Positions 2,436-39,217 of a stretch of 64,000 nt of DNA are shown one piece after another (the stretch's first letter is position 1; each line of letters starts with the position of its first letter). The notes beneath the pieces were generated by a model, which searched no databases, had not been told where the DNA came from, and saw only the letters and a list, made by a program, of their open reading frames with translations. A program made the translations under genes and the position numbers. The stretch is from Methanomassiliicoccales archaeon (GTDB lineage Archaea > Thermoplasmatota > Thermoplasmata > Methanomassiliicoccales > JACIVX01), in the NCBI GenBank assembly GCA_038850735.1, contig JAWCLO010000003.1, forward strand, positions 1-64,000. Reading direction: 5' to 3'.

Positions 2436-3635
2436 GTGATCCGTGCGACCAAGAGAGCTTTATCATTAAGTTCTCCAATAAGAGACTTCCTTGTATATGC
2501 AAGGCAGCTCGAGGCAAAAGGCATTAATGTTCTAAAGCTAAATATTGGCGATCCAAACAAATTCGATTTCGAAACGCCGAGGCATATTCGAGACGCACTT
2601 TGCCGAGCCGTGGAAATATGCGATAACGGGTATGCTGACGCCGAAGGAATAAAGGAGCTTAGAAATGCTATAGCAGAAAAGGAGCGAGAGAAAAACGGCA
2701 TCGATCTCAACCCCGAAGATATTGCTATTACAACTGGAGTAACTGAAGCTATACAAGCAGTAGTGGCTGCGGCGATAGACCCTGGTGAGGAATTGTTGTT
2801 GCCAGGACCCGGCTATCCCACATATTCCGAGTACGTCGCCTTCTTTGACGGCGTTCCTGTACCTTACAGAAAAGATGAGGAAAGTGATTGGCAGCCTGAT
2901 CTCGACGATATGAGAAAGAAAATCACTGAGAAGACCAAAGGGATTGTTGTCATAAACCCGAACAATCCAACAGGTGCCGTGTACTCCGAGAAAACACTCA
3001 GGGCGATCGTGGACTTGGCTGGGGAATACAACCTTTTCCTCATCACCGATGAAATATATGATCTCATGTCATTTGATGCGATTCATTATTCTCCCAGCAC
3101 TCTTTCTTCAGATGTTCCGACGATCATACTCAATGGATTTTCAAAGATTAATCTCTTACCTGGCTGGAGACTTGGATACATCGCATTTCGGGACGCTTAT
3201 GACCAGTTAGAAGAAATCAAGTCAGCTGTAATGCGCCAGCTGAGACTGCGATTATCAGCAAATCAGCCTTGTCAATATGCAATGTTGGAGGCATTGAAGG
3301 GACCTAAAGATTACGTGGAGGAAACAAATCGGAAGTTGAAGGAGAGGGCAACGTATTCGTATAAGAGAATCAATGAAATTGATGGGTTAAGTACCACGAA
3401 GCCAAAGGGGGCATTCTATATTTTTCCAAAGATCGAGTCAAATGTTTGGAAAACCGATAGGGATTTTGTGCTCGATGTTCTTCTCAACGCGCACATTCTG
3501 CTAGCTCCTGGTTCCGGATTTTGCAAGACTTATGGCGTCAATCACTTCCGTGCCGTATTTCTCCCAAGTATAGAGATTCTCTCCGAGGCGTTTGATAGGT
3601 TAGAGGGGTTCATGCGGGATCGAACGAAGCATTGA
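2436..3635 (+). CDS. Pyridoxal-phosphate aminotransferase, class I/II
   Basis: This is a 399-residue fold-type I aminotransferase of the AspC/AlaT-like archaeal group. Visible signatures are the N-terminal LNIGDPN segment, the PGPGYPTY loop, the NPNNPTGAVY block that contacts the cofactor, DEIYDLM, and the Schiff-base lysine in NGFSKINLLPGWRLGY. The likely substrate is alanine, aspartate or an aromatic amino acid with 2-oxoglutarate, but sequence alone does not decide. The start is GTG at 2436, preceded by an A/T-rich TATA-like element around 2400-2412. The gene is monocistronic or leads into the small Cys-rich gene about 90 bases downstream. Confidence 0.9.
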   Translation: MIRATKRALSLSSPIRDFLVYARQLEAKGINVLKLNIGDPNKFDFETPRHIRDALCRAVEICDNGYADAEGIKELRNAIAEKEREKNGIDLNPEDIAITTGVTEAIQAVVAAAIDPGEELLLPGPGYPTYSEYVAFFDGVPVPYRKDEESDWQPDLDDMRKKITEKTKGIVVINPNNPTGAVYSEKTLRAIVDLAGEYNLFLITDEIYDLMSFDAIHYSPSTLSSDVPTIILNGFSKINLLPGWRLGYIAFRDAYDQLEEIKSAVMRQLRLRLSANQPCQYAMLEALKGPKDYVEETNRKLKERATYSYKRINEIDGLSTTKPKGAFYIFPKIESNVWKTDRDFVLDVLLNAHILLAPGSGFCKTYGVNHFRAVFLPSIEILSEAFDRLEGFMRDRTKH

Positions 3636-3963: not shown

Positions 3964-5520
3964 TCAATAATCGAACGTTTCCCATGTGCTAGGAAACGCT
4001 TTTTCTAGCCCTGCGAGCTTCACGCCAGTGATCGCTGCCGTGTTCAAATCGATTGCTCTAAGGTCCTCGGGCGATATGGTTTCAAGGCAGTCGTGACCTG
4101 ATAACATTGCAAGCGTCTTGAACTCCTCAGCGCATGCATGGATGAAATTGACAAGCCGATTTGATGCTGATTCAATATCGATGCACGCACGAAATCGTGT
4201 TTCTTGAGTCGCCAGTCCATAGTGACATGCTCCTTTATGGCACATCATGCACGCTCTGCATCCGAGTGCTATTTCCGCAGCTGCACCGAATCCCACCGCA
4301 TCTGCGCCAAGTGCAATTGCCTTGAACGCATCAGCGCCATCCCTGATACCGCCTAGAGCAATGAGTTTCACCTTTTTCTTAAGGCCCAAATCTTTAAGAG
4401 CTTTTGCCGCCTGCCTAATGCAGGCAATTGTTGGAATACCTGCGTGCTGCGTTACTACTTCAGGTGAGGCTCCTGTACCTCCAACCATGCCATCGATCGA
4501 GATTGCATCTACTCCAGCTTCTGCAGCTATGCGGGCATCATCATAAGGACGACTTGGACCTAACTTGATAAGGATTGGTTTTTCATAATTTGTCAAATCC
4601 CGTAGGATTTCTACAAGTTTTGCAAGATCCTTTGGGTTGCTCATATCATAATGTCTGCATGGAGACAGAGCATCTGTTCCGACAGGTAGCCCCCTTATTC
4701 TTGCGATGTCTTGGGTAACCTTATCACCTAGCAAATGACCACCCATACCAGGTTTGGCTCCTTGTCCGATCTTTATTTCGATTGCGTCACCAGACCTTAG
4801 ATAGTCCACGGAAACTCCCCACCTTCCTGTCGAGAATTGAACGGCTAGGTAACCACCAGGATTCCACTTTTTGATACCCTTTCTGTATGATTCTTCATCG
4901 GAATAACCGTGGGCAAGAAGAGCCTCGCCTGGAAACATCCCCCCTTCACCAGTATTCGCGAGAATTCCTAGTTTTGCCGCAGCAACAGATAACGCCATTT
5001 TTCCCTCTCTGGAGATTGCTCCATATGACATGGCGGCAAATACAAATGGATATCTTAATTTGATTGGATTGGTGCAAGTTTCTTGACCTATGACAACCTC
5101 GTATTGAAAATTTTCTCTATATTTATCCTTGGGGGGTCTTGAAGCTAGTTGTGATGGGACGACAACGAGACCATCAAAATGCGGAATTGAGCCCATTGTG
5201 CCATATCCTCGAATCTCATACTCTCCCGTTTCTGCTTTTTTGTGAATTTCCTCGACTGTTTGAACAGTCCATATACCCTTTGAGATGATCTCTGGTGTGA
5301 CTGCTCTTACATATATGCAACTATTCGGACATCCTTTTTCCATGCAGATTCTGCAGCCAACACACGCAAGTTCGTTTGCGATAAAGACTCTTCCTTTTTC
5401 ATCCCTTGCGAAGACGCCTCTTTCACAAGCGTCGATACAAGCACCGCATTTCCATGGTTGCTGCCAACTCCTGCACCTTTCCTTTTCAATCGTGACCCAA
5501 TAATGTCCAACAAGCGTCAA
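3964..5520 (-). CDS. Archaeal glutamate synthase FMN domain with N-terminal ferredoxin (GltB2-like)
   Basis: This 518-residue protein is the FMN and 3Fe-4S domain of glutamate synthase as a separate subunit. It reduces 2-iminoglutarate, formed from 2-oxoglutarate and ammonia, to glutamate. The N-terminus has a double ferredoxin module (CGACIDAC and CVGCRICMEKGC). Typical blocks follow: AAMSYGAISREG, NTGEGG, IGQGAKPGMGG, SIDGMVGGTGASP, and the cluster ligands in GCRACMMCHKGAC (C-x5-C-x4-C). It is the last gene of the operon and starts with TTG overlapping the GltB3 stop by 4 bases. The GltB1 glutamine amidotransferase domain is absent here and nowhere else in the window. Electrons presumably arrive through the ferredoxin module from the Hdr/FrhB proteins encoded upstream. 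Confidence 0.88.
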   Translation of the reverse strand: MTLVGHYWVTIEKERCRSWQQPWKCGACIDACERGVFARDEKGRVFIANELACVGCRICMEKGCPNSCIYVRAVTPEIISKGIWTVQTVEEIHKKAETGEYEIRGYGTMGSIPHFDGLVVVPSQLASRPPKDKYRENFQYEVVIGQETCTNPIKLRYPFVFAAMSYGAISREGKMALSVAAAKLGILANTGEGGMFPGEALLAHGYSDEESYRKGIKKWNPGGYLAVQFSTGRWGVSVDYLRSGDAIEIKIGQGAKPGMGGHLLGDKVTQDIARIRGLPVGTDALSPCRHYDMSNPKDLAKLVEILRDLTNYEKPILIKLGPSRPYDDARIAAEAGVDAISIDGMVGGTGASPEVVTQHAGIPTIACIRQAAKALKDLGLKKKVKLIALGGIRDGADAFKAIALGADAVGFGAAAEIALGCRACMMCHKGACHYGLATQETRFRACIDIESASNRLVNFIHACAEEFKTLAMLSGHDCLETISPEDLRAIDLNTAAITGVKLAGLEKAFPSTWETFDY

Positions 5521-6218
5521 GGTTCATCATCTCCCTTCGAAACCGTTTTCTTTTCTCCGTAAAACGGTCTCAACGAGGCAGGTACAATCTTCTTGAAGGA
5601 ACGCGGATTGAGAGTGAGTCCTTCGTATTGAAGGACTGAATTTATTTTGTCGATATCAGCTGATCTAAGTCTGTCCTGCTTTGCATTGTGACCGAGACCT
5701 TCGTATGAGCCGATGATATAAATGCCACCTCGAATAATGTAATCACCCAGTGCATTGCCAGCATTTCCGAGCACGAAAATGTCACCTCCAACCATATATG
5801 TGCCTGTATTATCTCCTATATCTCCATCAATGATTATTGTTGCACCTTTGTTCATAGCTCCGAGGAAATCCCCCGCCGATCCCTTGATTCTCAACTCCCC
5901 CCCGCAGCAATAGACAGCAGCATAATCGCCTGCGTTCCCAGAAATCTCGATTCGGCCTGATGTCATCCCATCTCCAAGGTATTTTCCTGTCGAACCTGAA
6001 ACGTAGAGCCTGCAGCCTGAGTTCAGCATCCCGAAATAATCTCCGACATCACAATGGACCTTTATCTTTCCGAAATCCAATCCTGCACAAAGACCATTGA
6101 TATGAGAGGCATTAATCATTTCAATTTCATGAGACTGGTTTATGAGTTCTCGCACCTTTCTATTTGCTTCTTTCAAAGTAAGACCACTGCAATCTAACAC
6201 ATTCGACAATTCTTTCAT
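5517..6218 (-). CDS. Glutamate synthase GXGXG-domain subunit (GltB3-like)
   Basis: This 233-residue protein is a right-handed beta-helix built from repeats ending in G-x-x-G-x-x-x-G, for example VSGSTGKYLGDGM, ISGNAGDYAA, IKGSAGDFLGAM, IDGDIGDNTG and VLGNAGNALGDY. This is the GXGXG domain shared by the glutamate synthase C-terminal domain and formylmethanofuran dehydrogenase subunit C. Next to a GltB2 gene it is best read as GltB3, which forms the structural core of the enzyme. The ATG overlaps the stop of the FrhB-like gene by 4 bases (ATGA), and its own stop overlaps the GltB2 start. An FwdC assignment is unlikely, as no other fwd/fmd genes are near. Confidence 0.87.
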   Translation of the reverse strand: MKELSNVLDCSGLTLKEANRKVRELINQSHEIEMINASHINGLCAGLDFGKIKVHCDVGDYFGMLNSGCRLYVSGSTGKYLGDGMTSGRIEISGNAGDYAAVYCCGGELRIKGSAGDFLGAMNKGATIIIDGDIGDNTGTYMVGGDIFVLGNAGNALGDYIIRGGIYIIGSYEGLGHNAKQDRLRSADIDKINSVLQYEGLTLNPRSFKKIVPASLRPFYGEKKTVSKGDDEP

Positions 6219-7345
6219 CCCCCAGAAAGCTGCGCAAAACGTCTCATGGCCTCAGCCCTTTTCTCAGGGTCCGAGAGCCCTTGAAGCATAAGGAGGAGTT
6301 CCTCATCATAGAGTTGCGATCTTTTTCTTTTCTGCTTGTTTCGCTTAGCGATGTACAATTGATTTGTATTCACGCTTTTTGTGATTTCAAGTCGCCCCAT
6401 TTGGAGCGCTCTCGTGAGGACACTCTCACCAGCAGAGTTTCTTGTGATTACAGTGCAATATCCGTATCTTGAACCAGTATAACCAATGGAGATGTCGGCA
6501 GACTCTGCGAGGTAATCTGTGCAGCGTGCGCAACCACTTCTCAGGAATTTTTGGGTATTCGTTAAAGAGATCTCTCTAACAGTTCCATCTCTTAGTGTTA
6601 TCGTCAAGACTTCTTCGGCGCCTGTTCTATCCATTATAGCAATGTTTCTCGGTGAAATTCCCATCTCGTTCTCGATAATCTCTGAAACCAGATTGTGAGT
6701 ACATACCCCCCAGCAAAACCTTCCAATAAGGATGCGAAGAGATTTTCCATAGATATCGAGTGCCTTCATTCTTGACCGTTGGATCAGTCGTGCTGCATCT
6801 ATTACGCAAGGTGCACCCACCAGAGCAATCTTTCGCAAGGATTTTTCGTATACGGCTTCATTGAGGCTTGACAATGTGGGCGACCATATGAATTGATGGG
6901 CAGCGCATTCATAGATCTCCTCTTCCGATGTGACGATCCTTGAAAAGGGTTGCCACGTCCATTTATCAACATCAGTTACGATAGCACCATCGATAAAACC
7001 GCTGCTCAGGGCGCTCGCGAGAAGTTGATTCAGCACGTCGCTTAATAAATCTCCATATTTACTACGCGGCGTTGTTGTTGGCGGTCTGGCGGAAACGACT
7101 GAGATCATCTTGCCTTCTCCCCATTCTTTTAGCCGAGGGCACACCTCAGCGCAATACGCCTCACAACCGAAACAAGGATCGACGCTAGCAGTCGCTAGAC
7201 CGAATTTCTTTGTTATTCGCTTGTGATCTGGATTCTGTTCGTCTTGAGGAAAAAATAAGACTCCTCTAGAACAACATGAAACACAAGCACCACATCCCGT
7301 ACACCTTCCGAGACTCCAGACATACGTCTCGAGTTGCTTTGACAT
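6215..7345 (-). CDS. FrhB/FpoF-family F420-dependent oxidoreductase subunit
   Basis: This 376-residue iron-sulfur flavoprotein belongs to the coenzyme F420 hydrogenase/dehydrogenase beta-subunit family. It starts with a CTGCGACVSCC cluster motif and a second Cys group (PCFGCEAYCAEVCP). It then carries the FrhB N- and C-terminal domains, including CVIDAARLIQRS, RFCWGVC and GCARCTDY. Family members bind FAD and exchange electrons between F420 and Fe-S partners; some accept other donors. It is the second gene of the Hdr-glutamate synthase operon. The ATG at 7345 lies in TGATG with the HdrA stop; a TTG at 7348 is the alternative. The likely role is to feed F420H2 electrons to the HdrA fusion or take them from it. 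Confidence 0.85.
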   Translation of the reverse strand: MSKQLETYVWSLGRCTGCGACVSCCSRGVLFFPQDEQNPDHKRITKKFGLATASVDPCFGCEAYCAEVCPRLKEWGEGKMISVVSARPPTTTPRSKYGDLLSDVLNQLLASALSSGFIDGAIVTDVDKWTWQPFSRIVTSEEEIYECAAHQFIWSPTLSSLNEAVYEKSLRKIALVGAPCVIDAARLIQRSRMKALDIYGKSLRILIGRFCWGVCTHNLVSEIIENEMGISPRNIAIMDRTGAEEVLTITLRDGTVREISLTNTQKFLRSGCARCTDYLAESADISIGYTGSRYGYCTVITRNSAGESVLTRALQMGRLEITKSVNTNQLYIAKRNKQKRKRSQLYDEELLLMLQGLSDPEKRAEAMRRFAQLSGG

Positions 7346-10300
7346 CAAGTCACACCCCTTTCAATAGTATGAATCCCTTTTGTAATCAAACCAGTTCGAA
7401 GAGGGTTTGGACCAAGATTTCTCAAAAGCTCAACGAATTCCTGAATTGATTCAGCAAATTTTCTGCCCTCAGAAGCTGAAATCCATTCAACTCGCAAACG
7501 CCTCGAGTCAAAATGATAATCCTCGATCATTCTCTTGAGATTATCAACTTTCTTCTTCATCAGCTGATTTCCAATTATGTAATGGCAGTCTCCAGGATGA
7601 CAAGCCCCGATAAATACACCGTCTGCACCCTTGAGAAATGCGTAGAGAATGTGGAATGGATCAACCCTTCCGCTACACATGACTCTGATCGGAAGTAAAT
7701 CCGGTGGATATTGAAATCTGCTTACTCCTGCATTATCAGCTCCAGCATATGCGCACCAATGGCAGAGAAAGGCTATGCCCCGGACCTCATCCGCGCTTGG
7801 TTCCGAGAGCGCTGCATCTATTTGTGAGAGGATTTGATCGCTAGTGAAATTGTGAATGGATATGGCCCTTGATGGGCACGTGGATGCGCAAGCACCGCAG
7901 CCCTTGCAGGTGAGCTGGTTCACTTCTGCCAGTAGAAATTGATTTCTAATTTTCATTTCTATAGCATTATAGGGGCAAGCTTCGATGCATCTAGCGCACC
8001 CTGTGCAGATATCTTGGTCAACAGCGGCGATCGTGGGATCGCGAACGATTGCAGTTTTTGTTAGGATTTCAAGGGCTCGTGATGCAGCTGCCAGACCATC
8101 GCGTATGGATTCTGAAATGCCCTTTGGAAATTGAGCTGCCCCAGCGACAAAAATGCCATCAACTGAAAAATCAACTGGACGGAGTTTTGGATGGGCTTCC
8201 ATGAAGAAACCATCTTCAGACAGCGGAATCTTTAGTAGTTCTGATATGAGCTTGTTATCGTTTCTTTGTACGAGAGGCTGAGAAAGGACTACGAGGTCTG
8301 TGTGGATGAGGATCTCTTGGTCACCGTCGATGTCTTTTACTTTCACGCCTAACTTTCCGACTCTATCAATTCGCGGTGGTTCCTCTTCGCTAAACCTGAT
8401 AAAGCGGATTCCCATTTCACAAGCTTCTTTATAATGCTTCTCACAAAAACCATTTATCCTAATATCTCTGTAAAGTACGTAGGCATTGGACGAAGGGAAA
8501 GATCTTTTAAGTTCTATAAGATCCCTTAATGCGACTTCACAGCATATCTGAGAGCAGTACGTTCTCCCATCGCTTTCTCTTACTCCCACGCAAAGAATCT
8601 GAACAATATTTTTCCCCTCTAGATTTTCCTCAACAAGCATCTTTTCAAATTCTAGCTGGGTCACGATTCGATCATCTACCCCATACTCATAAAAACCAAA
8701 AGGTTGCAGAATTTCAGCGCCGGTTGCCACTATGATAACGCCTGCATCTATGATTCTTTCTCCTGAGATCAACCCTTCATCTAACTTTCCGCGTCCCAAT
8801 TTAACTACAAAATGTCCGACAGAACCGTCAACTGCGGCGATTGAAGTTGATGTGAGTATTTCGATATTTTTGCATGACAAAACCGCATCTGTCAGCCTTT
8901 TTACAAATTCATGAGAAAACGTTCCATCTAAATCTTTCAAATATGTGTCTTTCTGGTTCCCTCCTAACGAGGGTGTTTTTTCAACAAGGTGTACGGGAAA
9001 GCCCCTAGACGCGAGCGATAAGGCTGCGCTCATTCCGGCAATTCCCCCACCAATGACGACGGCCGAACGAATGACATCGCTTCTTATCTGCTTCAAAGGT
9101 CTAGCAAGCGAGATACTTGCCACCCCCATTCTCACGAGATGCTTCGCTTTCTCTGTTGCCTTCTGGCAATCCTTCTGATGTACCCAACTATCCAGTTCCC
9201 TAATACTCACAAGGTTGACAAGATTTCTGTTAAGACCTGCCTTGTAGCAGGTATCCTGGAAAAGCTGCAGGTGGCTTCTGGGACTGCATGCAGCGATGAG
9301 TACTCTATTCAATTTCATTGTTTTAATGGCTTTCTGGACTGCAATTTGATTTTCCTGTGAGCAAGCATACATACACTTTTCTGCATGGACAACGTTGGGA
9401 AGCGTCGAAGCATATTTGACGACCTGATCCACGTCAACAACTGCACCGATATTCATTCCGCAGCTACAGGCGAACACACCAATCCTTGGATTACCTTGTT
9501 CTGAGATACTTCCTATCTCCTCATCATCTTCTGTTCTAACATTCAAAATTGCTTTGTGAGCGAGCGTCGAACCAATGGCAATAGCATCCCTTACTGTGCG
9601 TGAAATATCCTCTGGCATTTTTGCGCAGCCGCAAGCATAAACGTGTTCATTCGAAGTTTTAAGTCCGTTTGAATCTGATGTCTGAATGAATCCATTCTCG
9701 TCTAATTGGATCCGCAGCAATTCAGCGAGTTTTTCCAAACCAGATTCTGGGACGATTGGAGGACAGAGCACTAGAATATCAAGTGTTACGGTCGAAATGC
9801 TATCAGTCTGCCTATCATGATATGTGACATAGATGCATTGGTCCTCGTCCTCTTCTATATTTCCTATCAGTGATTGGATGTACTGTATTCCATATTCATC
9901 CTTTGCTCTTTTTAAGAAATCATCATTCCCCTTGCCAAGTGTTCTCAGATCGTTATAAAAAACAAGAATTTCGCTTTCAGGAAGGTGCTCCCGTGTTAGT
10001 ATTGCTTCCTTGGTGGAATACATGCAGCATATTTTTGAGCAGTATGGTTTGCAGGACTCAGTCCGTGAACCTGCGCATTGCACAAAACCGATCTTCAGCG
10101 GAACTCTCCCATCAGAAGGTCTCGCGACGGCTCCTTTTGTAGGACCAGACGCGCTGAGGATTCTCTCATATTGAAGAGAGGTCACAACATTCCGGAATCG
10201 ACCATATCCGTACCTTTGAAGGTATTTTCCTGTATAGATATCGAACCCAGTCGCAAGAATGATATCATGAGCTTGGATTTCTACATGTTCATCTTTATCG

Positions 10301-10845
10301 TCAAATTTAACGGCATTTGCAGGGCACCTCTTCTCACACGCACCGCATGTTCCTTTTATTATCTTCAAACAGTGTTGTGTATCGATGGTTGCCACTCTTG
10401 GGACGGCCTGCGGAAATGGGATATATATTGCCGATCTTTCACTAAGTCCTTCATTAAATTCGTCTGTCACATGTTTCTGAGGACAGACTGTTGAACAGAT
10501 TCCACAACCGGTGCATCTACTTAGGTCGACGTAACGTGCTTTCTTGTTAATGGTCACAAGAAATCCATCATCGTTTTCCTTCACATCCTCTATTTCTGAA
10601 TAGCTAAGAAGATGAATTCGCGGGTTTCTTGCTACCTCCACCATCTTCGGAGCAAGAATGCATATTGAACAATCAAGTGTCGGAAAGGTCTTGTCTAATT
10701 GAGCCATTCTGCCGCCTATGGATGGTTTTCGTTCAACGAGATATACCTCATATCCCTGATCAGCAAGTTCTAAGGCGCAAGAAATTCCTGCAATCCCCCC
10801 TCCGATAACTAGAATGCTGTTTGTTTCACTTTTCATGTTTACCAC
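7345..10845 (-). CDS. HdrA-HdrA-MvhD fusion (heterodisulfide reductase-type flavoprotein)
   Basis: This 1166-residue fusion holds two HdrA modules and a C-terminal MvhD domain. Module 1 (about 10-440) has a Rossmann FAD site (IGGGIAG at 14-20), a ferredoxin motif at 111-121, Cys at 159/167/170/174 and a Cys-rich loop at 257-274. Module 2 begins with an HdrA N-terminal domain (about 455-585), then a second FAD site (598-604), a Cys loop at 752-769 and two 4Fe-4S motifs (947-957, 980-990). MvhD spans about 1022-1145 with Cys 1028, 1031, 1057, 1082 and 1087. HdrA is the electron-bifurcating FAD subunit in methanogens, and MvhD couples it to a hydrogenase or dehydrogenase. No hdrB or hdrC is present. 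The start is GTG 10845 or ATG 10836. It is the first gene of the operon. Confidence 0.9.
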   Translation of the reverse strand: MVNMKSETNSILVIGGGIAGISCALELADQGYEVYLVERKPSIGGRMAQLDKTFPTLDCSICILAPKMVEVARNPRIHLLSYSEIEDVKENDDGFLVTINKKARYVDLSRCTGCGICSTVCPQKHVTDEFNEGLSERSAIYIPFPQAVPRVATIDTQHCLKIIKGTCGACEKRCPANAVKFDDKDEHVEIQAHDIILATGFDIYTGKYLQRYGYGRFRNVVTSLQYERILSASGPTKGAVARPSDGRVPLKIGFVQCAGSRTESCKPYCSKICCMYSTKEAILTREHLPESEILVFYNDLRTLGKGNDDFLKRAKDEYGIQYIQSLIGNIEEDEDQCIYVTYHDRQTDSISTVTLDILVLCPPIVPESGLEKLAELLRIQLDENGFIQTSDSNGLKTSNEHVYACGCAKMPEDISRTVRDAIAIGSTLAHKAILNVRTEDDEEIGSISEQGNPRIGVFACSCGMNIGAVVDVDQVVKYASTLPNVVHAEKCMYACSQENQIAVQKAIKTMKLNRVLIAACSPRSHLQLFQDTCYKAGLNRNLVNLVSIRELDSWVHQKDCQKATEKAKHLVRMGVASISLARPLKQIRSDVIRSAVVIGGGIAGMSAALSLASRGFPVHLVEKTPSLGGNQKDTYLKDLDGTFSHEFVKRLTDAVLSCKNIEILTSTSIAAVDGSVGHFVVKLGRGKLDEGLISGERIIDAGVIIVATGAEILQPFGFYEYGVDDRIVTQLEFEKMLVEENLEGKNIVQILCVGVRESDGRTYCSQICCEVALRDLIELKRSFPSSNAYVLYRDIRINGFCEKHYKEACEMGIRFIRFSEEEPPRIDRVGKLGVKVKDIDGDQEILIHTDLVVLSQPLVQRNDNKLISELLKIPLSEDGFFMEAHPKLRPVDFSVDGIFVAGAAQFPKGISESIRDGLAAASRALEILTKTAIVRDPTIAAVDQDICTGCARCIEACPYNAIEMKIRNQFLLAEVNQLTCKGCGACASTCPSRAISIHNFTSDQILSQIDAALSEPSADEVRGIAFLCHWCAYAGADNAGVSRFQYPPDLLPIRVMCSGRVDPFHILYAFLKGADGVFIGACHPGDCHYIIGNQLMKKKVDNLKRMIEDYHFDSRRLRVEWISASEGRKFAESIQEFVELLRNLGPNPLRTGLITKGIHTIERGVT

Positions 10846-10870
10846 ACTTCGGGAGGCTACCCTCCGAAGT
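10846..10870 (-). promoter_or_regulatory. Leader hairpin before the HdrA-glutamate synthase operon
   Basis: This is a near-perfect inverted repeat of 11 and 10 bases with a four-base loop and one bulged base: arm 10846-10856, loop 10857-10860, arm 10861-10870. In the minus-strand RNA it ends on the base just before the GTG start codon at 10845. One arm holds GGAGG and the other its complement, so folding would hide the only Shine-Dalgarno-like sequence. This suggests control of translation initiation, or a protein-binding site. The function is inference. Confidence 0.5.
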
Positions 10871-10949
10871 TCGCATCTAATCGATCAATATTTTATACTT
10901 TCGGACCACCCAGACATAAATTATCATGGAAAAAATATAGCAGAAAAAT

Positions 10950-10960
10950 ATTTATATAAA
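10950..10960 (-). promoter_or_regulatory. TATA box of the HdrA-FrhB-GltB operon
   Basis: The minus strand reads TTTATATAAAT, a good archaeal TATA box. Transcription would start about 25 bases downstream, near 10925, giving a leader of roughly 80-90 nt that includes the hairpin at 10846-10870. The next gene upstream on the same strand, ribH, ends at 11051, so this promoter separates the two operons. Confidence 0.6.
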
Positions 10961-11050
10961 ATTCAGAACTTCGGTCAAATCAAGGAATTCATGCTACGAA
11001 ATTTATTTGTTCTGTTCCGAAAATCTGATAAAAATTGTTAGGCAAGAAGT

Positions 11051-12381
<1,331 letters not shown>

Positions 12382-12385
<4 letters not shown>

Positions 12386-13089
12386 CGGGACCACGCACCA
12401 GAGTGCCACGCACGGATAATATCTTTCCCTTCCAGAAATACTAGGTCATTACTTTTTGCATAGTCAATTGCCATGTCCTTTCGCAGAGCATTTCCATCAT
12501 CGCCCATCATCTCGCAAATTGTTGCGGTAGGTGTGAGGTTCGCCATAACCATTATTGCGGTGGCGAGCTCAGTATGGCCAAATCTTGAGACCAAAAGGTC
12601 CTTTCTCGCATTCAACAAATACACATGACCAGGTGATCTAAAAAGGTGTCCGAATTCTTCCTTGGCCCATCCATTCTCTGCAGTCAACGCCCGCCTGGCA
12701 AATTTAGCAAACTCCGATATGGTAAGTGCCCTGTCTCTGTCGGTTATTCCCGTGAATGTTTTGCGGTGGTTGATAGTTATCGAAAATGCTGATTTTGTAT
12801 CATACGGAATATCGTTTGGACTGAGTTTCGATAGAATAGGATAACGGCTTGAAATATCACTGAAAATATCAGCAAGATACGGTATTCCTATAATCTCTCG
12901 AATATCATTATGTACTGTGGTACAGATGAGACCGCCAGCATCTTTTCTTAGTGTTCTTATGATATCTGGATTAATCATTTCAGAGGCTACAACCATGTCT
13001 GTTTCTCTTTCTCTGTCATCGGAGTCGTAGATCAGAATGATTTTCCCATTTCGAAGATCTTCGAGCGCCCTGCTGATCTTTTCAAACAT
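12382..13089 (-). CDS. ribB: 3,4-dihydroxy-2-butanone 4-phosphate synthase
   Basis: This 235-residue enzyme makes the four-carbon precursor of riboflavin from ribulose 5-phosphate. It carries the acidic DSDDRERETDMV active-site loop, DAGGLICTTVH, the TGITDRDRALTI block, and RSPGHVYLL before HTELATAI. All are hallmarks of RibB, here without a GTP cyclohydrolase II fusion, as in other archaea. The Met at 13089 is preferred over one at 13110, because the TATA-like element at about 13120-13129 puts the transcript start near 13098. It is the first gene of the flavin operon, behind a palindrome. Confidence 0.93.
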
Positions 13090-13136
13090 TGCAAATCGGA
13101 TTGATCGCATATCAAGAAACTATATTATCTCTTTTG

Positions 13137-25128: not shown

Positions 25129-25177
25129 AAAGTATTTTTGTCTAATTTTTCAATCATTTGGCTTGGAGCGATCAATC

Positions 25178-26110
25178 ATGGGAATTTTTGTAGATCGTAA
25201 TAAGTTGACCACATTAAGGGAGGCCGCTAAAATCATTCAGGACGGAGATATGGTGGCTTTTGGCGGCGGACTTTGCTTAAGAGAACCTATAGCAATGATT
25301 CATGAACTCATTCGCCAAAAGCGCCGTAATCTTCACATTGTCGGTACAGCGCATGGATTCGACGTAGATCTTGCTTGTGGCGGTGGAATTGTCGGTGCGG
25401 TTGAAGAAACACATGTGAGCTTCGAACAGGACTTCGGCTTGGCCCCCAATTATCGTCGTGCATGCGAAAGCGGCATCGTAAAAATTCGTGAAAGTTGCTG
25501 TAATACGATCATCAATCAGCTACGCGCTGCTGAATTTGGAATGCCCTTCGTTCCGATGAGAAGCATAAAGGGTAGCGACGAGATGAAATTTCATCCAGAG
25601 TACAAAGAATTCATTGATCCCTACAGTGGCAAGAAAGTGGTGCTCGTGCCAGCACTTGAACCAGACGTTGCACTCATTCACGTCAATAAAGCCGATGTGC
25701 ATGGTAACGTCAAACTTGAGCCGCCATATGTAGCTGACGTACTTTTTATGAGGGCATCAAAGAAGGTCATTGTGACTGCCGAGGAGATCATATCGGAAGA
25801 AGAAATGAGAAGGATTGGACCTACGGTGCCATATTATGAAATTACTTCGGTAGTCCATGTTCCTTTTGGTGCTCATCCAACCAGTTGTTATCCATACTAC
25901 GCGTATGATCGATCTCACATAGCTGAATACATAAGGTTGGCAAGCGCTGGTCCGGAAGTTTTTAGTAATGAGTATCTTGAGAAATACATCTATGGAATAA
26001 GCGATCATTCGGAATATATCCAAAGAGTTGGTGGTGAAGCTAAGATGAGAAGGCTGGCCTCATGGAGGGAGAGTCCAGAGAAGTGGATGGAGTTGTTTAC
26101 CTATGAGTAA
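25178..26110 (+). CDS. CoA-transferase-family alpha subunit (GctA/IpdA-like)
   Basis: This 310-residue protein is the alpha half of a class I CoA-transferase fold. It has VAFGGGLCLREPIAMIHEL at the N-terminus, ACGGGIVGAVEETHVSFEQ, the LAPNYRRACESG segment and HVNKADVHGNVKLEPP near the C-terminus. Homologues include glutaconate CoA-transferase subunit A and IpdA, a ring-opening hydrolase of steroid catabolism. The start at 25178 (MGIFVDRNKL) is used; the frame is open slightly upstream. Its stop overlaps the next gene by 8 bases, so the two subunits are made together. The partner lacks the transferase Glu. Confidence 0.8.
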   Translation: MGIFVDRNKLTTLREAAKIIQDGDMVAFGGGLCLREPIAMIHELIRQKRRNLHIVGTAHGFDVDLACGGGIVGAVEETHVSFEQDFGLAPNYRRACESGIVKIRESCCNTIINQLRAAEFGMPFVPMRSIKGSDEMKFHPEYKEFIDPYSGKKVVLVPALEPDVALIHVNKADVHGNVKLEPPYVADVLFMRASKKVIVTAEEIISEEEMRRIGPTVPYYEITSVVHVPFGAHPTSCYPYYAYDRSHIAEYIRLASAGPEVFSNEYLEKYIYGISDHSEYIQRVGGEAKMRRLASWRESPEKWMELFTYE

Positions 26111-26945
26111 CGGTTTTGAAGTTGGAATTGACGAGCTCTTTGTGGTGAATGTGGCAAGAACGATCAAGGATCGAACAACCGTCTTTCACGGCGTCTCTTC
26201 ACCTATTCCAATGGTTGCGATGTATTTTGCAAAACTCACGCATGCAAAAGACATGGTATACTTTGGAGGGGTTTCAAGCGCTGTTGACCCTAATCCACCA
26301 TTTTTACCCTACACAACAAACGATTGGGTAATGATTCAGGGAAGAACTGCTATGGTCACCGTAGACAAGATTTTTGATCTTGCTCAAAGAGGCGAACTTG
26401 ATCGCTCATTTTTCAGTGGTGCCCAGATCGACAAGTACGGAAACCAAAATGTGAGTTTGATAGGAACCCCCGATAAATGCAAGATAAAGTTCCCCGGTGG
26501 CGCCGGTGGCTGCAATTTATCCGCTGATTGTGTAAATTATACTATCTGGACAACTCGACATCGTGTGCAGAAAAAAAAGGATAGGATCATTTATACGCTA
26601 GTGGATAAATGTGATTTTATCACAAATATTGGACACATCACGCCATATGGCACGAGAAAGGATCTTGATCTTGTCGGAAATGGTCCAGATTGGGTTGTAA
26701 CGGAGCTGGGTGTCTTTGATTTCGATCCAGATACAAAGATCATGCGACTGCGCTATCTCTATCCCGATACGACGGTTGATACGATTTTGGAAAATACACA
26801 ATTCCGTCCAGTCATACACCCTGAGGTAAGGGTCATGGACATGCCTACCCCCGAGGAAGTCGAACTTATTCGAAAAATTGACCCACTTAAAGTGAGGCAG
26901 CTTGAATTTCAGTCTGAGGAGCTTAAGAGAAAATTCGTCCTATGA
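26103..26945 (+). CDS. CoA-transferase-family beta subunit lacking catalytic Glu (IpdB-like)
   Basis: This 280-residue beta subunit aligns by eye with glutaconate CoA-transferase subunit B: FFSGAQIDKYGNQNVSLIG, KFPGGAGGC and LDLVGNGPDWVVTELGVF correspond clearly. In true transferases the covalent CoA-thioester Glu sits in an ESG motif after THA/YAP-type residues. Here the equivalent strand reads MVYFGGVSS, with Gly instead of Glu. The pair is therefore unlikely to be a CoA transferase. Hydrolase or lyase action on a cyclic or unsaturated acyl-CoA, as in IpdAB or AibAB, is the better guess. Acyl-CoA synthetase genes follow 20 bases downstream. Confidence 0.78.
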   Translation: MSNGFEVGIDELFVVNVARTIKDRTTVFHGVSSPIPMVAMYFAKLTHAKDMVYFGGVSSAVDPNPPFLPYTTNDWVMIQGRTAMVTVDKIFDLAQRGELDRSFFSGAQIDKYGNQNVSLIGTPDKCKIKFPGGAGGCNLSADCVNYTIWTTRHRVQKKKDRIIYTLVDKCDFITNIGHITPYGTRKDLDLVGNGPDWVVTELGVFDFDPDTKIMRLRYLYPDTTVDTILENTQFRPVIHPEVRVMDMPTPEEVELIRKIDPLKVRQLEFQSEELKRKFVL

Positions 26946-26965
26946 TGTGAAGGGGTGTCTAGCTT

Positions 26966-28381
26966 ATGAAGGATCAGAGAATCGATGCGATTTTCAATCC
27001 CAAATCAGTCGCGCTCATCGGAGCTTCAAGCAAGGAAGGTAAAATGGGATACGTGTTCGCCAAGAACATCACAGGAGGCTATCAAGGAAAAATATACATG
27101 GTCAACCCATCAGAAGACCAAATCTTTGGATACAAGTGTTATCCCGATGTCAAATCGGTTCCAGATAAGATTGATCTCGCCGTAATCGTTATCCCTGCAA
27201 AGGCTGTGCCAAAAGTCATGGAGGAGCTTGCTCAGAAAGGGACAAGGGCTGCAGTTGTGATTACTGCGGGATTCAGCGAAGCAGGACCAGAAGGCAAGAA
27301 GCTTGAAGAGGATATGATGGAAGCAGCGAATAAAGGGAATATTAAGGTGGTAGGACCGAATTGTTTTGGAATTTACAATTGCAACATCGGACTGAATGCC
27401 TCTCTTGGTGTTGGAACACCGCCGCGAGGTGGGGATATATCATTTGTAACCCAATCTGGCGCCTACGGAATGGCGATTTTCGCATCTGCACTTGATCATC
27501 ACATGAAGTTCGCCAAAATCATGGCGCACGGCAACAAAGCAGGCATCGAAGATTACGAAATTCTAAGGTACTTGGGCGATGATGATGAAACGAGGGTTAT
27601 TTGCCTATTCCTCGAATCGGTTAATAAGGGAAGAGAATTCTTTGAGGAGGCAAAAAGAATAACGCCAAAGAAACCCATCGTGGCGACAAAAACAGGAAGG
27701 ACTGCTGGAGCGGCGAGAGCTGCAGCTTCACACACTGCAGCACTGGCAGGATCATTTACAGCGTATAAAGCGGCCTTCAAGCAGTCAGGGATCATTTTCG
27801 CAAGAAATGGTATTGACCTTATTAATATCGCAAAGGGGCTTGATTGGCAACCACTACCGAAGGGGCCTCGTGTTGGCATCATAACAAATTCTGGCGGAAC
27901 GGGAGTGGAATTGGCAGATCTTTGCGAAGAGGAAGGTCTCATCATTCCAGAGTTGACCGAAGAAACTCAGCGCAAGATTCGGGAATTAATACCTCCATAT
28001 GCGAGCGCAAAGAATCCTATTGATATGACGCCAATATGGCCTAGGTTCGTCGAACTCTATTCTCAACTTATCAAGATACTTTATGAATCGGATGAAGTTG
28101 ACATTATAATTCCAATCATACTTCAGCGTGCGGCAATGATGCCAGAAGTTTGCAAAGCAGTTGCGGACAGAGTCAATGAGTGTCTTCGATCAGGATTGGA
28201 GAAACCCACCTATGTTTGCTGGGTGTCTGTCAGAAATGCTCTTGAAAACATGGATTATCTTCAAAAAAGCAGCGTCCCGTGCTTTGACTGGCCTGAAAGA
28301 ACAGCAAGGGCGGTGGGCGCAATCTATGAGTATGTTCAATTCCTGCAGCGCAGGAGAATCCACATCCACAAGGAGGCTTAG
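26966..28381 (+). CDS. ADP-forming acyl-CoA synthetase, alpha subunit
   Basis: This 471-residue protein is homologous to the alpha subunit of ADP-forming acetyl-CoA synthetase, which makes ATP from an acyl-CoA, ADP and phosphate. It has an N-terminal CoA-binding Rossmann domain (FNPKSVALIGASS, VNPSE), VGPNCFGIYN, and SQSGAYGMAIF. The phospho-histidine lies in RAAASHTAALAGS. The ATG at 26966 follows AAGGGGTG. The ATP-grasp beta subunit follows after two bases, so the operon encodes the full enzyme. Substrate is unknown; the preceding CoA genes suggest an organic acid released from an unusual acyl-CoA. Confidence 0.88.
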   Translation: MKDQRIDAIFNPKSVALIGASSKEGKMGYVFAKNITGGYQGKIYMVNPSEDQIFGYKCYPDVKSVPDKIDLAVIVIPAKAVPKVMEELAQKGTRAAVVITAGFSEAGPEGKKLEEDMMEAANKGNIKVVGPNCFGIYNCNIGLNASLGVGTPPRGGDISFVTQSGAYGMAIFASALDHHMKFAKIMAHGNKAGIEDYEILRYLGDDDETRVICLFLESVNKGREFFEEAKRITPKKPIVATKTGRTAGAARAAASHTAALAGSFTAYKAAFKQSGIIFARNGIDLINIAKGLDWQPLPKGPRVGIITNSGGTGVELADLCEEEGLIIPELTEETQRKIRELIPPYASAKNPIDMTPIWPRFVELYSQLIKILYESDEVDIIIPIILQRAAMMPEVCKAVADRVNECLRSGLEKPTYVCWVSVRNALENMDYLQKSSVPCFDWPERTARAVGAIYEYVQFLQRRRIHIHKEA

Positions 28382-28383
28382 CT

Positions 28384-29091
28384 TTGAAAGCCGAAGCAGC
28401 GCGATTGATAAGGAATGTGCTTGACGAAGGAAGAACGATTCTTTTGGAGCACGAGGCTAAGGCGGTTCTGGAATCATATGGTATTCCCTCAACTAAAGAG
28501 ATCTTGTGCAAGAATGTTGAAGAAGCAATACAGGCAGCTGAGCTGATCGGATATCCGGTTGTGATGAAAATAGTGTCCCCCCAGATCGTCCACAAGACGG
28601 AATTTGGAGGGGTGAAACTGAATATTCGTTCGACCGAAGATGTGAAGTCATCGTTCGAAGACATGATTTCGAGAATTAAAAGGACGCTTGGAAATTTTGA
28701 CTTTCGAGGGGTTCTGATTTCTGAGACCAGCAGAGGTCATGAACTGATAGTAGGATCAATGAAGGATCCTCAATTTGGCCAGATGATTATGCTTGGCACG
28801 GGTGGAGTCAACGTTGAGGTTTTCAAGGACGTATCGTATCGATTAGCGCCGGTGGATGAAATTGACGCACTCGAAATGCTTTCGGAGCTGAAAGGTAAGC
28901 GTTTGCTCGACGGCTATAGAGGGATGGAGAAGGCAAATATTGATGCAATAGTGTCGATGTTAATAAATGTCTCGCACATTCTCGTTGATTTCAGTGAAAT
29001 ATACGAAATGGATCTTAATCCTGTTTTTGCAAACTCAAAGGGCGTAGTGGTGGCGGATGCAAGGATAATTTTGAGTAAGGATACATCCTAA
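28384..29091 (+). CDS. ADP-forming acyl-CoA synthetase, beta (ATP-grasp) subunit
   Basis: This 235-residue ATP-grasp subunit binds ADP/ATP and receives the phosphate from the alpha subunit histidine. Visible blocks are EHEAKAVLESYGIP, PVVMKIVSPQIVHKTEFGGV, HELIVGSMKDPQFGQMI with GTGGVNVEVF, and the C-terminal EMDLNPVF. Length matches the separate beta subunits of archaeal ACD. It begins with TTG at 28384, two bases after the alpha stop. It is the last gene of the operon; about 130 bases follow before the methyltransferase cluster. Confidence 0.88.
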   Translation: MKAEAARLIRNVLDEGRTILLEHEAKAVLESYGIPSTKEILCKNVEEAIQAAELIGYPVVMKIVSPQIVHKTEFGGVKLNIRSTEDVKSSFEDMISRIKRTLGNFDFRGVLISETSRGHELIVGSMKDPQFGQMIMLGTGGVNVEVFKDVSYRLAPVDEIDALEMLSELKGKRLLDGYRGMEKANIDAIVSMLINVSHILVDFSEIYEMDLNPVFANSKGVVVADARIILSKDTS

Positions 29092-29219: not shown

Positions 29220-30272
29220 ATGGAAATGACACCTATGCAGAGGTTTGAAGCGGCCCTGAATTTTGAGACGCCCGATTATGTCCCTGTATCGCTTTTTGGC
29301 GGAATTTTTGAAGTGCATTTTGTACCGGGAATGGATGTTGTAAGGTACGGTACAAGCGGTGCGAACATGGCAAAGGCTCATATCGCCTTCTATGAGCACG
29401 TTGGAGGGGACACAATCTACTGTCTTTCAGACATGGGGCTGATCGTTCAGGGTTGGGGAGTAAGAATGAAGCTTCCGGCAGAGCCTGATATTCACATGGC
29501 TCTTGGGAAGTTTCCTGTGAAGGAACCTGGTGATTGGGAGAAGCTAGAGCCACTAGACCCAAAAGTAGACGGAAGGATGAGATTGTATCTGGATGCTTGT
29601 GCAATATGCAGTGAAAAGTATGGTGATAGAGTACCTATTGGCGTGTCTATGCCGAGTCCTTTAACAACGACAACACACGTATGTTCAATGGAAGACACGC
29701 TTATGCATATGATTACAGATCCTGACGCTCTAAAAAAAGGTCTTAAGGCAATTACAGAGACCGTGGCAGCTTTTATCAATGCCTGTGTTGATAATGGTGC
29801 ATATTTTGCTGGTTATCTTACGACGCGCGCGAGCAAGGAAATTACCACCGTTGAACAATACAGAGAGTTTGGGGCGCCATACGACGAAGAGGTCTTCAAG
29901 AAAACCCCAGCAATGGTTCATGTACCGCATATCTGTGGCGTAGAGCCAATGTTTGAGATAATTGATGATTACAGGAGAAAATTCAAAAATGTCAAGGCCA
30001 TCTCATGGTGGGACAGAGGTGCGAAGCCAAATCTATCAGAAGCCAAGGCCACTTATGGCAAGCATCTTGCACTTATGGCAGGGATCGATCATACGAATAC
30101 CCTTGTAACGGGAACGCCTGATGATGTTGCAGCTGAAATCAAGGACGCCTGCGAGAAGGCAAAGCATGGAAGCGGTTTCGTTCTTGCTCCTGGTTGTGAA
30201 GTTTCTCCAAAGACTCCTTGGCACAATATGCGAGCGGCTATCAATGCGGCAAGAAGGTATGGAAAGTACTAG
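29220..30272 (+). CDS. UroD-family corrinoid methyltransferase (MtoB/MtbA-like), copy 1
   Basis: This 350-residue TIM-barrel protein belongs to the uroporphyrinogen decarboxylase superfamily, in the branch of cobalamin-dependent methyltransferases (MtaA, MtbA, CmuA, MtvB/MtoB). The zinc ligands of that branch are present: His and Cys in VPHICGVEP and Cys in LAPGCEVSP. The corrinoid protein gene follows after about 120 bases, and a paralogue sharing KEPxDWEKLxPLDPxVDGR and THVCxME blocks lies beyond it. It could take a methyl group from a substrate or pass it from the corrinoid to an acceptor; sequence does not decide. A true UroD is excluded by the metal site. Confidence 0.83.
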   Translation: MEMTPMQRFEAALNFETPDYVPVSLFGGIFEVHFVPGMDVVRYGTSGANMAKAHIAFYEHVGGDTIYCLSDMGLIVQGWGVRMKLPAEPDIHMALGKFPVKEPGDWEKLEPLDPKVDGRMRLYLDACAICSEKYGDRVPIGVSMPSPLTTTTHVCSMEDTLMHMITDPDALKKGLKAITETVAAFINACVDNGAYFAGYLTTRASKEITTVEQYREFGAPYDEEVFKKTPAMVHVPHICGVEPMFEIIDDYRRKFKNVKAISWWDRGAKPNLSEAKATYGKHLALMAGIDHTNTLVTGTPDDVAAEIKDACEKAKHGSGFVLAPGCEVSPKTPWHNMRAAINAARRYGKY

Positions 30273-30391
30273 GAGCGCAAGAAACTCTTTCATTTTTCTA
30301 TATTTGTAAGCCACCAGAACGAAGCATTGGAAATTGAATATGTATTGAGTTGCGAGGATGCGATCGAATTGGGATAAGGCGGTGTAATGTG

Positions 30392-31054
30392 ATGAATGAA
30401 GATCAATATAAAATGGCATATGAATGTGTCGTTAATGGAAAGGTTGGGGAAGCCCAGAAGATCGGCGAGATGCTGAAAGCAGCTGGGATAGACAGTAAAG
30501 AGGTTGGAAAGGTTCTAATCGATGCGATGAATGTTGTTGGTCATAAATATAGAGAAAGAGAAATAGCGCTGCCTCAATTGATATTAGCCACACACTCATT
30601 TAAAAAGATGTTGCTACCATATGTGATGGAGACAAAAGGCGAAGCTGGTACGGTGGTCATTGGCGTGGCGCAAAATGATATTCATGACATTGGAAAGAAC
30701 CTTGTTGTTGGAATGTTGCAGGTATATGGCTACAAGGTTCATGATTTGGGAAAGGATGTGCCACTCGACAAATTCATTGAGGCCGCAAAACAACACAATG
30801 CAAATATCGTAGGAGCGGGAACGCTTTTGACAGCAACGATGCCAGAGCTCGAGGTTATTCTCACTAAGTTGAAGGATGCCGGCTTGAAAGAGAAAGTAAA
30901 GTACATGGTGGGAGGTGCACCTGTCACCGTCACATTTGCCAAGAGAATAGGAGCTGATGGCTACGCTGCGGACGCAGTCTTAGCCGTTGAGATGGTTTCA
31001 GAATTGATGAAAGGCAATCAGTGCTATCTCGCAGCTCGGCAGGACAAGGACTGA
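30392..31054 (+). CDS. Corrinoid (methyl-carrier) protein, MtoC/MttC-like
   Basis: This 220-residue protein has a four-helix N-terminal cap and a C-terminal B12-binding Rossmann domain. The cobalt ligand histidine is in NDIHDIGKNLV (D-x-H-x-x-G), followed by VGAGTLLTATMPE and the MVGGAPVT loop. It carries the methyl group on cobalt between two methyltransferases. The start is the ATG at 30392 (MNEDQYKMAYEC); the frame is open about 14 codons upstream. Its stop lies about 30 bases before the second methyltransferase start, and the two flanking UroD-family genes are its evident partners. Confidence 0.9.
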   Translation: MNEDQYKMAYECVVNGKVGEAQKIGEMLKAAGIDSKEVGKVLIDAMNVVGHKYREREIALPQLILATHSFKKMLLPYVMETKGEAGTVVIGVAQNDIHDIGKNLVVGMLQVYGYKVHDLGKDVPLDKFIEAAKQHNANIVGAGTLLTATMPELEVILTKLKDAGLKEKVKYMVGGAPVTVTFAKRIGADGYAADAVLAVEMVSELMKGNQCYLAARQDKD

Positions 31055-31086
31055 AATTGATACTAATGTGTGGAGTGGAACCTCTT

Positions 31087-32127
31087 ATGAATTCAAGAAA
31101 CAGGGTACATGCTGCCCTTGCGATGGAGTCTCCCGATCGCATTCCAGTATGCGGCATGGGTTGGACGATTGGGGCAATTGCTGGAAAATATCCAACAAAA
31201 GAATATGCACAAAATGGCGAGAAGATGGCCAAAGGGCAAATTGCGTTTTGGGAATCAACCGGTGTGGACATACTAAATCCCACATCTGATATGGGACAAT
31301 TAGCAGAGGGGTGGGGTGTGAGAATGCGATATGAAGCCGACCTAACACCAATGCTCCATGAATTTGCGGTGAAGGAACCTGAAGATTGGGAAAAATTGAA
31401 ACCACTAGATCCCAGGGTTGATGGGAGAATGCATGTTACTATAAAAGCCGTAGATATGATCAGAAAATCTCTCGGAGACAAAGTCGCCATCATGCCTTAC
31501 GTTCCCAGTCCATTGACATCCGCAACTCATGTTTGCAATATGGAACAGGTTATGATGGATATACTTCTCAATCCCGATTTACTCCACGTGGGATTGAAAA
31601 CTATGTCCGAAACCATCATTGCTTATATGGATGAGATCATCGATGCTGGGGCAGATGGTGCTCTTTTTGCTACCACGCGAGCATCTGGTGAAATCACAAC
31701 TATAGACCAGTATAAGGAATTTGGCGAGAAGTATGATCGCCTAGTTCTCTCTTCGGTGAAAAAGCAAGATGGTCTAAATATTTTGCATGTCTGCGGTGTG
31801 GAACCTCATTTTTCACTACTTGCTGAGTATAAAAATGCAAACGGAATAAACTGGTGGGATAGAGGAAGTACTCTTGATCTGGCAACAGCAAAGAGAGAAT
31901 ATGGAAGCAGGGTATGCCTTGTTGGTGGTGTCGATCAAACAACCACGCTGATACTCGAAGATTCTCATTCAGTTGAGCAGGAATCGAAAGATGCCATCGA
32001 TAAAGGATTTGCAGACGGCAGAGGTATGATACTCTCGCCTGGTTGTGAAATTTCGCCGAATACTCCCTTGGAAAATATCAAAGCCATGGTAAGGGCGGCT
32101 GAATTGTATGGAAGGAGAAAAAATTGA
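31087..32127 (+). CDS. UroD-family corrinoid methyltransferase (MtoB/MtbA-like), copy 2
   Basis: This 346-residue paralogue of the protein at 29220 keeps the zinc ligands (ILHVCGVEP and LSPGCEISP). The two share long blocks over their whole length, such as EGWGVRM, SPLTxxTHVC and TTRASxEITT, so they come from a duplication. Substrate pocket residues differ, which would allow one to act on the methyl donor and the other on the acceptor. The ATG at 31087 (MNSRNRVHAAL) aligns with the start of copy 1 and follows GGAG. Earlier in-frame starts overlap the corrinoid gene. Confidence 0.82.
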   Translation: MNSRNRVHAALAMESPDRIPVCGMGWTIGAIAGKYPTKEYAQNGEKMAKGQIAFWESTGVDILNPTSDMGQLAEGWGVRMRYEADLTPMLHEFAVKEPEDWEKLKPLDPRVDGRMHVTIKAVDMIRKSLGDKVAIMPYVPSPLTSATHVCNMEQVMMDILLNPDLLHVGLKTMSETIIAYMDEIIDAGADGALFATTRASGEITTIDQYKEFGEKYDRLVLSSVKKQDGLNILHVCGVEPHFSLLAEYKNANGINWWDRGSTLDLATAKREYGSRVCLVGGVDQTTTLILEDSHSVEQESKDAIDKGFADGRGMILSPGCEISPNTPLENIKAMVRAAELYGRRKN

Positions 32128-32159
32128 ATCATTCATGAAGGGAAGGAGGATTGGTGTTG

Positions 32160-33806: not shown

Positions 33807-33927
33807 AGGGCTCATACATGAGCGAAAATGTCGTGTTTCCTAAATTCCGAATTTGAACCGACGTAAGGAAGCAAAATTATATGGGTTAAGTGTCAAGTTC
33901 TGGAAAGAAAACAGACGGAGGATATAA

Positions 33928-35271: not shown

Positions 35272-35272
35272 T

Positions 35273-35306
35273 TTTTTTCTAAAAACTTTATTTCTTTTTT
35301 TCGATT
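35273..35306 (+). terminator. Poly-T terminator after the aminotransferase
   Basis: Two T-runs of seven bases (about 35273-35279 and 35298-35304) follow the stop codon directly. T-rich runs of this kind end archaeal transcripts. The next gene is on the opposite strand and ends about 180 bases further on. Confidence 0.5.
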
Positions 35307-39213: not shown

Positions 39214-39217
39214 CAAG

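Follow-up and report, generated by a model that had tools for sequence, protein, structure and literature searches.

A conserved gene module in Methanomassiliicoccales joins an HdrA-HdrA-MvhD fusion to glutamate synthase subunits and suggests an F420-independent electron-bifurcating complex

A stretch of 64,000 nucleotides from a Methanomassiliicoccales archaeon (assembly GCA_038850735.1, contig JAWCLO010000003.1, positions 1 to 64,000; hereafter the window) contains a module of four overlapping minus-strand genes, running from 10845 to 3964, that encode in order an HdrA-HdrA-MvhD fusion, an FrhB-like protein and the glutamate synthase subunits GltB3 and GltB2. The host genome is archaeal, 1.66 Mb in size and 98% complete, and it carries mcrA. 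The gene order and the overlaps were already recognised in the initial annotation of the window, and the four identities assigned there agree with the Pfam and NCBIfam family models used here. The parts of the module are as follows.

7345..10845, minus strand: HdrA-HdrA-MvhD fusion, 1166 amino acids (aa) counted from GTG, with two flavin adenine dinucleotide (FAD) units of thioredoxin-reductase-like type, ferredoxin domains and a C-terminal MvhD domain
9556..10845, minus strand: HdrA unit 1 of the fusion (residues 1-430), from alignment to 5odc_A and a motif scan
7792..9492, minus strand: HdrA unit 2 of the fusion (residues 452-1018), with an N-terminal HdrA domain, the second FAD domain and a C-terminal 2[4Fe-4S] ferredoxin domain
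7393..7782, minus strand: MvhD domain of the fusion (residues 1022-1151); PF02662 (FlpD/MvhD), E-value 2e-48; solved MvhD chains, E-value about 1e-41
6215..7348, minus strand: FrhB-like Fe-S protein of 377 residues with an N-terminal 2[4Fe-4S] domain; FrhB_FdhB_C, E-value 4e-31
5517..6218, minus strand: GltB3, the GXGXG beta-helix subunit; PF01493, 67.9 bits, GXGXG E-value 1e-18, and alignment
3964..5520, minus strand: GltB2, with the flavin mononucleotide (FMN) glutamate synthase domain; PF01645 Glu_synthase, E-value 1e-108, and alignment to 1llw

Every junction within the module is either a 4-base overlap or a TGATG, an arrangement that suggests coupled translation of the four genes; the overlaps do not, as had been claimed, fix the ratio in which the products are made. 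The fusion is given here from the GTG at 10845, and comparison with its relatives makes the ATG at 10836 the more probable start.

The same four-gene order was found in six of 147 Methanomassiliicoccales genomes, which belong to three families according to the labels of the search tool. The conserved co-occurrence that the initial annotation proposed to look for therefore exists, and its recurrence in five genomes besides that of the window (labelled G223, G301, OWC_0007, G253 and G376) rules out a chance juxtaposition of the four genes. Two of the copies are incomplete: in G301 both HdrA and GltB2 are cut by contig ends, and in G376, a genome that is 64% complete, HdrA is split in two frames and GltB2 is cut by a contig end. 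Protein identity to the window copies is highest for GltB2 (72-84%), followed by FrhB (56-81%), HdrA (55-69%) and GltB3 (45-60%). The genes that flank the module in G253 are wholly unlike those in the window, and the same order in three families, once with unrelated flanks, therefore indicates that the linkage has been selected. Furthermore, a profile search of the 147 genomes confined the FrhB-family protein to the six module carriers and the module GltB2 orthologue was seen in carriers only across a class-wide sample (300), which argues that the Hdr, FrhB and Glt parts travel as one unit. Elsewhere in the phylum the FrhB profile matched unrelated FrhB proteins (approximately 23-29% identity), whose short flanks contained neither Glt nor Hdr genes. 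To look beyond the phylum, contigs were scanned once with the weak patterns SWQQPWK and CGACIDxC; one true relative was returned, OWC_0007, a Methanomassiliicoccales metagenome-assembled genome that is the closest named relative at this locus and places the window genome in the same order. Synonymous sites in the module genes are saturated, so no ratio of nonsynonymous to synonymous substitution rates (dN/dS) is given.

The fusion protein matches HdrA2 at 1095 bits and, set against solved HdrA chains, is arranged as an FAD unit with an inserted ferredoxin domain, an HdrA N-terminal domain, a second FAD unit, a C-terminal ferredoxin domain and MvhD. Unit 1 lacks the N-terminal HdrA domain, but in the alignment to 5odc_A its E227 and K279 correspond to E356 and K409 of solved HdrA and its C62 to Cys197; unit 2 keeps the glutamate (E734) and lacks Cys197. 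E356 and K409 serve as a marker of bifurcation in HdrA (PMC12054007), and Chadwick et al. reported the complementary pattern of the two units both in fused HdrA and in the Moorella MetFV-Hdr complex (PMC9012536). In unit 1, the inserted ferredoxin domain has a second cluster with altered, module-specific spacing (C159-x7-C167-x2-C170-x3-C174). A fused HdrA is not new in itself, since it belongs to a known type (class A3+MVH). The same architecture also occurs elsewhere in the genome, as separate genes (434 and 614 aa plus MvhD) and as an HdrA of 1009 or 1002 aa with MvhD, and the unit formed by the 1002-aa HdrA and mvhD adjoins mvhG and mvhA. The HdrB/HdrC heterodisulfide site was not found at the module locus in any relative read; the reported absence of hdrB and hdrC thus holds for the locus but not for the genome, which encodes hdrABC and mvhADG elsewhere. 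Two Hdr loci outside the module were observed. One is an extended cluster (G000:C1, approximately 253-273 kb; L104, L111) that reads hdrA-hdrC-hdrB-mvhD-hdrA(1009 aa)-mvhD-hdrD-like-hdrA split in two genes-mvhD-hdrA(1002 aa)-mvhD-mvhG-mvhA and holds four HdrA units in one stretch. The other, in Dethiosulfatarculus sandiegensis (L063 7214-11161), is an HdrA-MvhD with the same two-unit layout; it is 40% identical over 1181 positions and is interrupted by a frame change or a stop.

The synthase domain of GltB2 aligns to the ferredoxin-dependent glutamate synthase 1llw and keeps E192, K256, R276, C421, C427 and C432. From the residue roles in 1ofd and 1llw we equate the first three with E903, K972 and R992 and assign the cysteines to the Fe-S cluster. 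The E903, K972 and R992 equivalents are invariant across the module GltB2s, and H262 stands for Q978, the same as in canonical archaeal copies. The canonical stretch P-H-H-D-I is C-R-H-Y-D in the module, and the N-terminal 2[4Fe-4S] ferredoxin domain carries an extra RSWQQPWK segment. The GltB2s of the module group together in a single clade (support 100/100) that excludes the canonical copies, with approximately 36-42% identity to canonical GltB2 and 42% to the copy in the same genome. Taken with the retention of the block across three families and an HdrA FAD domain that appears competent for bifurcation, the intact FMN/2-oxoglutarate-site residues of GltB2 favour the earlier proposal of a dedicated Hdr-Glt electron-transfer unit.

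The glutaminase subunit GltB1, reported as absent, was not found at the module locus in any relative read through, but the genome does have a complete canonical gltB1-gltB2-gltB3 operon on another contig (C2:55447-58911, equal to L019 7448-10912), which holds the only GATase_2 match over the cut-off in this genome, as well as a glutamate dehydrogenase family gene. A gltB1 gene and a normal NADPH/ferredoxin donor elsewhere, with products that purify with GltB2 and GltB3, had been named as evidence that would count against the original proposal; the gltB1 gene (C2:55447-56592) was found, but its operon brings its own GltB2 and GltB3. Because the genome has gltB1-gltB2-gltB3, glutamate dehydrogenase, hdrABC and mvhADG, the module would be an extra complex and not the glutamate synthase of the cell. 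Nor is a GltB2-type domain without a glutaminase unique to the module, since another family of the order (f2; L032, L035, L040 and related loci) has a stand-alone GltB2-type FMN domain behind an N-terminal rubredoxin-like domain, and the flanks examined contain neither GltB1 nor GltB3. These rubredoxin-linked proteins are perhaps the nearest relatives of module GltB2, albeit with weak support (84/68). An in-frame TGA in some canonical-like GltB2 matches proved to be merely the terminal stop.

The FrhB-like protein is the sole member of its family in the genome. Its eight N-terminal cysteines, together with C181, C212, C273 and C276 of the FrhB cluster, are invariant in all six copies. Meanwhile, every copy has SDVLNQ or VDVINH, together with two inserted residues, in place of the GGxVT motif that starts the FAD pyrophosphate helix. 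All six likewise have R[ST]-rich sequence where the GKGK turn would stand, and YT, YA or DL where the S209-V210 loop would. The FAD and F420 sites compared here (GGxVT, the GKGK turn and the small S-V loop) follow PMC3591093, in which the GKGK turn is assigned to coenzyme F420. Both GGxVT and GKGK are present in four structure-solved FrhB-type chains, three of them FrhB and one (8riu) the F420-reducing zeta subunit of an ethanotroph (PMC11493965). A GGxVT-type motif is also present in almost all of the more distantly related FrhB-family proteins of the phylum (two differ at an alignment gap), most of which lack GKGK, and for this reason the FAD motif is the stronger contrast. The order is reported to lack F420 synthesis (PMC5011839, PMC10658910), with the exception of Methanomassiliicoccus luminyensis B10, whose cultures were reported to be fluorescent (PMC5011839). 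CofE was not found in the window genome, CofD in none of eight genomes (that of the window, two other carriers and five others) and CofH in none of the 147 genomes of the order over the cut-off. As the Cof proteins were not found, the FrhB-like protein has no relative within the genome and the FAD/F420 motifs are lost in six of six copies, an F420 function is unlikely, and F420(H2), the substrate originally suggested, is set aside here.

We infer that the four products form a complex, and the favoured, though tentative, reading is that it is soluble, F420-independent and bifurcating (or, in reverse, confurcating), with GltB2 and its ferredoxin domain replacing HdrC/HdrB, and 2-oxoglutarate/glutamate replacing the heterodisulfide. 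Described by its reaction it is possibly a flavin-based bifurcating glutamate dehydrogenase/synthase, in which an HdrA-MvhD core would use 2-oxoglutarate plus ammonium as the high-potential partner and FrhB would have become an Fe-S connector devoid of flavin, in methanogens that lack F420. HdrA would act as an internal pseudo-dimer, and electron pairs entering via the MvhD domain, probably from the MvhAG hydrogenase that the genome also encodes, would be split at its first FAD. One branch would pass to ferredoxin via the inserted ferredoxin domain and the other through Fe-S clusters to the FMN of GltB2/GltB3, where 2-oxoglutarate and free ammonium would be interconverted with glutamate. The 2[4Fe-4S] domain of GltB2 would thereby take an HdrC-like role and the FMN site an HdrB-like one, while the FrhB-like protein, which contributes three further clusters and lacks any recognisable cofactor site, may be an Fe-S wire or a scaffold between the two halves. 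The potential of the 2-oxoglutarate plus ammonium/glutamate couple is about -0.12 V and that of the heterodisulfide -0.14 V, whereas H2 lies at -0.41 V and ferredoxin at -0.5 V; because the first two are close, the glutamate couple could take the place of the heterodisulfide in a scheme of HdrABC-MvhADG type. The solved Hdr-Fdh-Fwd complex and the MetFV-Hdr-MvhD precedent indicate that the Hdr design accepts other modules (PMC12054007, PMC9012536).

Several points weigh against this scheme. In a host with gltB1B2B3 and glutamate dehydrogenase the need for a further glutamate-forming enzyme is not evident, nor is an ammonia channel evident without GltB1. The position of K409 in HdrA unit 2 is R774 in the window and R in most members (K in G253), and ferredoxin may not be the partner at all, given the unusual second cluster of the inserted ferredoxin domain. 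AlphaFold2 models of FrhB and GltB2 (mean predicted local distance difference test, pLDDT, of 47 and 54) were too poor and were not used.

The direction could instead be catabolic, with glutamate, fed by transamination, oxidised to 2-oxoglutarate and ammonium and its electrons confurcated with those of reduced ferredoxin to give H2 or a different mid-potential reductant. Downstream of the module, its convergent neighbour in the family is an alanine aminotransferase gene of PRK08363 type (window 2436-3635; also L050 and L058). At window 25163-29091 a CoA-transferase family pair (no NCBIfam name) lies ahead of the alpha and beta genes of an ADP-forming acyl-CoA ligase, and a similar CoA-transferase pair adjoins the module in G253 (L051 467-2231). 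It is because of these neighbours that glutamate oxidation stays among the possible directions, but gene neighbourhood is weak evidence and oxidation at about -0.12 V requires either low H2 pressure or confurcation, so the catabolic direction is judged unlikely. The arginine in unit 2 and the altered inserted ferredoxin domain would also suit a non-bifurcating enzyme, in which HdrA-MvhD and FrhB serve as a plain line, passing electrons to GltB2 from either hydrogenase or ferredoxin, and the whole is an H2- or ferredoxin-driven glutamate synthase. Such a line is likewise doubtful, since both published bifurcation residues are kept in unit 1 and a large two-FAD HdrA would be a costly means of simple transfer. 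It is rather improbable that GltB2/GltB3 act on another substrate, for example a different 2-oxo acid or an N-substituted glutamate, cf. N-methylglutamate synthase; the missing GltB1, the divergence of the clade and the C-R-H-Y-D stretch point that way, whereas the invariance of the E903, K972 and R992 equivalents does not. Recruitment of GltB1 from the canonical locus, which would turn the complex into a conventional glutamine-dependent enzyme whose donor is unusual, is very unlikely, because although the gene is present it lies in an operon with its own gltB2 and gltB3, its presumed binding partners, and module GltB2 is a distant paralogue. Least credible is the reading of the initial annotation, which would make the complex a variant of FGltS that depends on F420H2 as a glutamate synthase or bifurcase: in other methanogens and in ANME-1, FrhB-GltB pairs have been predicted to be F420-dependent glutamate synthases (PMC3448663, PMC3087415, PMC9012536), F420 uptake is possible in principle and B10 cultures were reported to fluoresce, but the Cof results and the motif losses, set against related proteins of the phylum that keep the FAD glycine motif, speak against it.

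Several known systems resemble the module in part. FGltS(I)/FGltS(II) and the FrhB10-GltS clusters of ANME-1 (PMC3448663, PMC3087415, PMC9012536) likewise encode an FrhB-family protein with glutamate synthase subunits; the module differs in adding HdrA-HdrA-MvhD, in lacking GltB1, in an FrhB without FAD/F420 motifs and in a host where F420 synthesis genes were not found. HdrABC-MvhADG, HdrABC-FdhAB-Fwd and type II HdrA (class A3+MVH; PMC12054007) share the HdrA bifurcation residues, ferredoxin domains and MvhD, as well as the two-FAD pseudo-dimer with a complementary Cys197, but here a glutamate synthase unit is encoded in place of HdrB/HdrC. The Moorella MetFV-HdrABC-MvhD complex (PMC9012536) similarly places a fused two-unit HdrA and MvhD on a non-methanogenic catalytic unit, although that unit is MetF and not GltB2, HdrBC is retained and NADH is the suggested donor. 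The label 'Hdr-glutamate synthase fusion' was applied earlier to HdrL of Desulfobacterium autotrophicum (type III HdrA; PMC2702500, PMC12054007), which also has an MvhD neighbour, but its glutamate synthase part is the GltD-like NAD(P)H flavoprotein and not catalytic GltB2/GltB3. The canonical GltB1-GltB2-GltB3 of the same genome has homologous GltB2 and GltB3 and differs by its glutaminase subunit and by having no Hdr or FrhB partner.

The statement that no enzyme of this make-up has been described thus needs to be narrowed. FrhB-GltB pairings (PMC3448663, PMC3087415, PMC9012536), HdrA-HdrA-MvhD fusions (PMC12054007) and Hdr-GltD-type fusions (PMC2702500, PMC12054007) are all published, but no report of their combination, with HdrA coupled to catalytic GltB2/GltB3, was found in the full-text literature searched. 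What looks new, as judged from the encoded proteins, is the joining of HdrA-MvhD to a GltB2/GltB3 catalytic unit without GltB1 or HdrBC, via an apparently flavin-less FrhB wire. The module of this rare methanogen group suggests an undescribed link of amino-acid chemistry to energy metabolism. If the proposed scheme is correct, Hdr-type bifurcation would extend from methanogenesis and one-carbon (C1) chemistry to amino-acid metabolism, where glutamate formation could help to pay for low-potential ferredoxin or ferredoxin could drive glutamate oxidation. It would also show clearly that a subunit of an F420 enzyme can persist as an Fe-S wire once its host has lost F420, and would caution against naming FrhB homologues as F420 enzymes from similarity alone. 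With its four proteins, the module offers a compact target for expression and structural work.

Upstream of the fusion gene lies a leader region with the following features.

10837..10965, minus strand: leader with a TATA-like box, the box TGTCTGGnTnnTCCGAAA and a small hairpin before the HdrA start

The box TGTCTGGnTnnTCCGAAA is common to three relatives (window 10837-10965, minus strand; L050 2845-2975; L058 105-240). The hairpin lies just 5' of the HdrA start in three relatives, where the arm sequences differ and pairing is kept. No Rfam family matched the leader, and the box and hairpin could represent a candidate regulator site plus a leader hairpin. Riboflavin/FAD synthesis genes are situated directly upstream of the module on the same strand (window 11051-13110, minus strand), and also in G223 and partly in G376. 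Further along the window lies a corrinoid methyltransferase cluster (29220-39216). It encodes two methyltransferases of MtaA/CmuA type, a protein that binds B12 and an activator of RACo type, and between these genes are those for an amidohydrolase and a class III aminotransferase.

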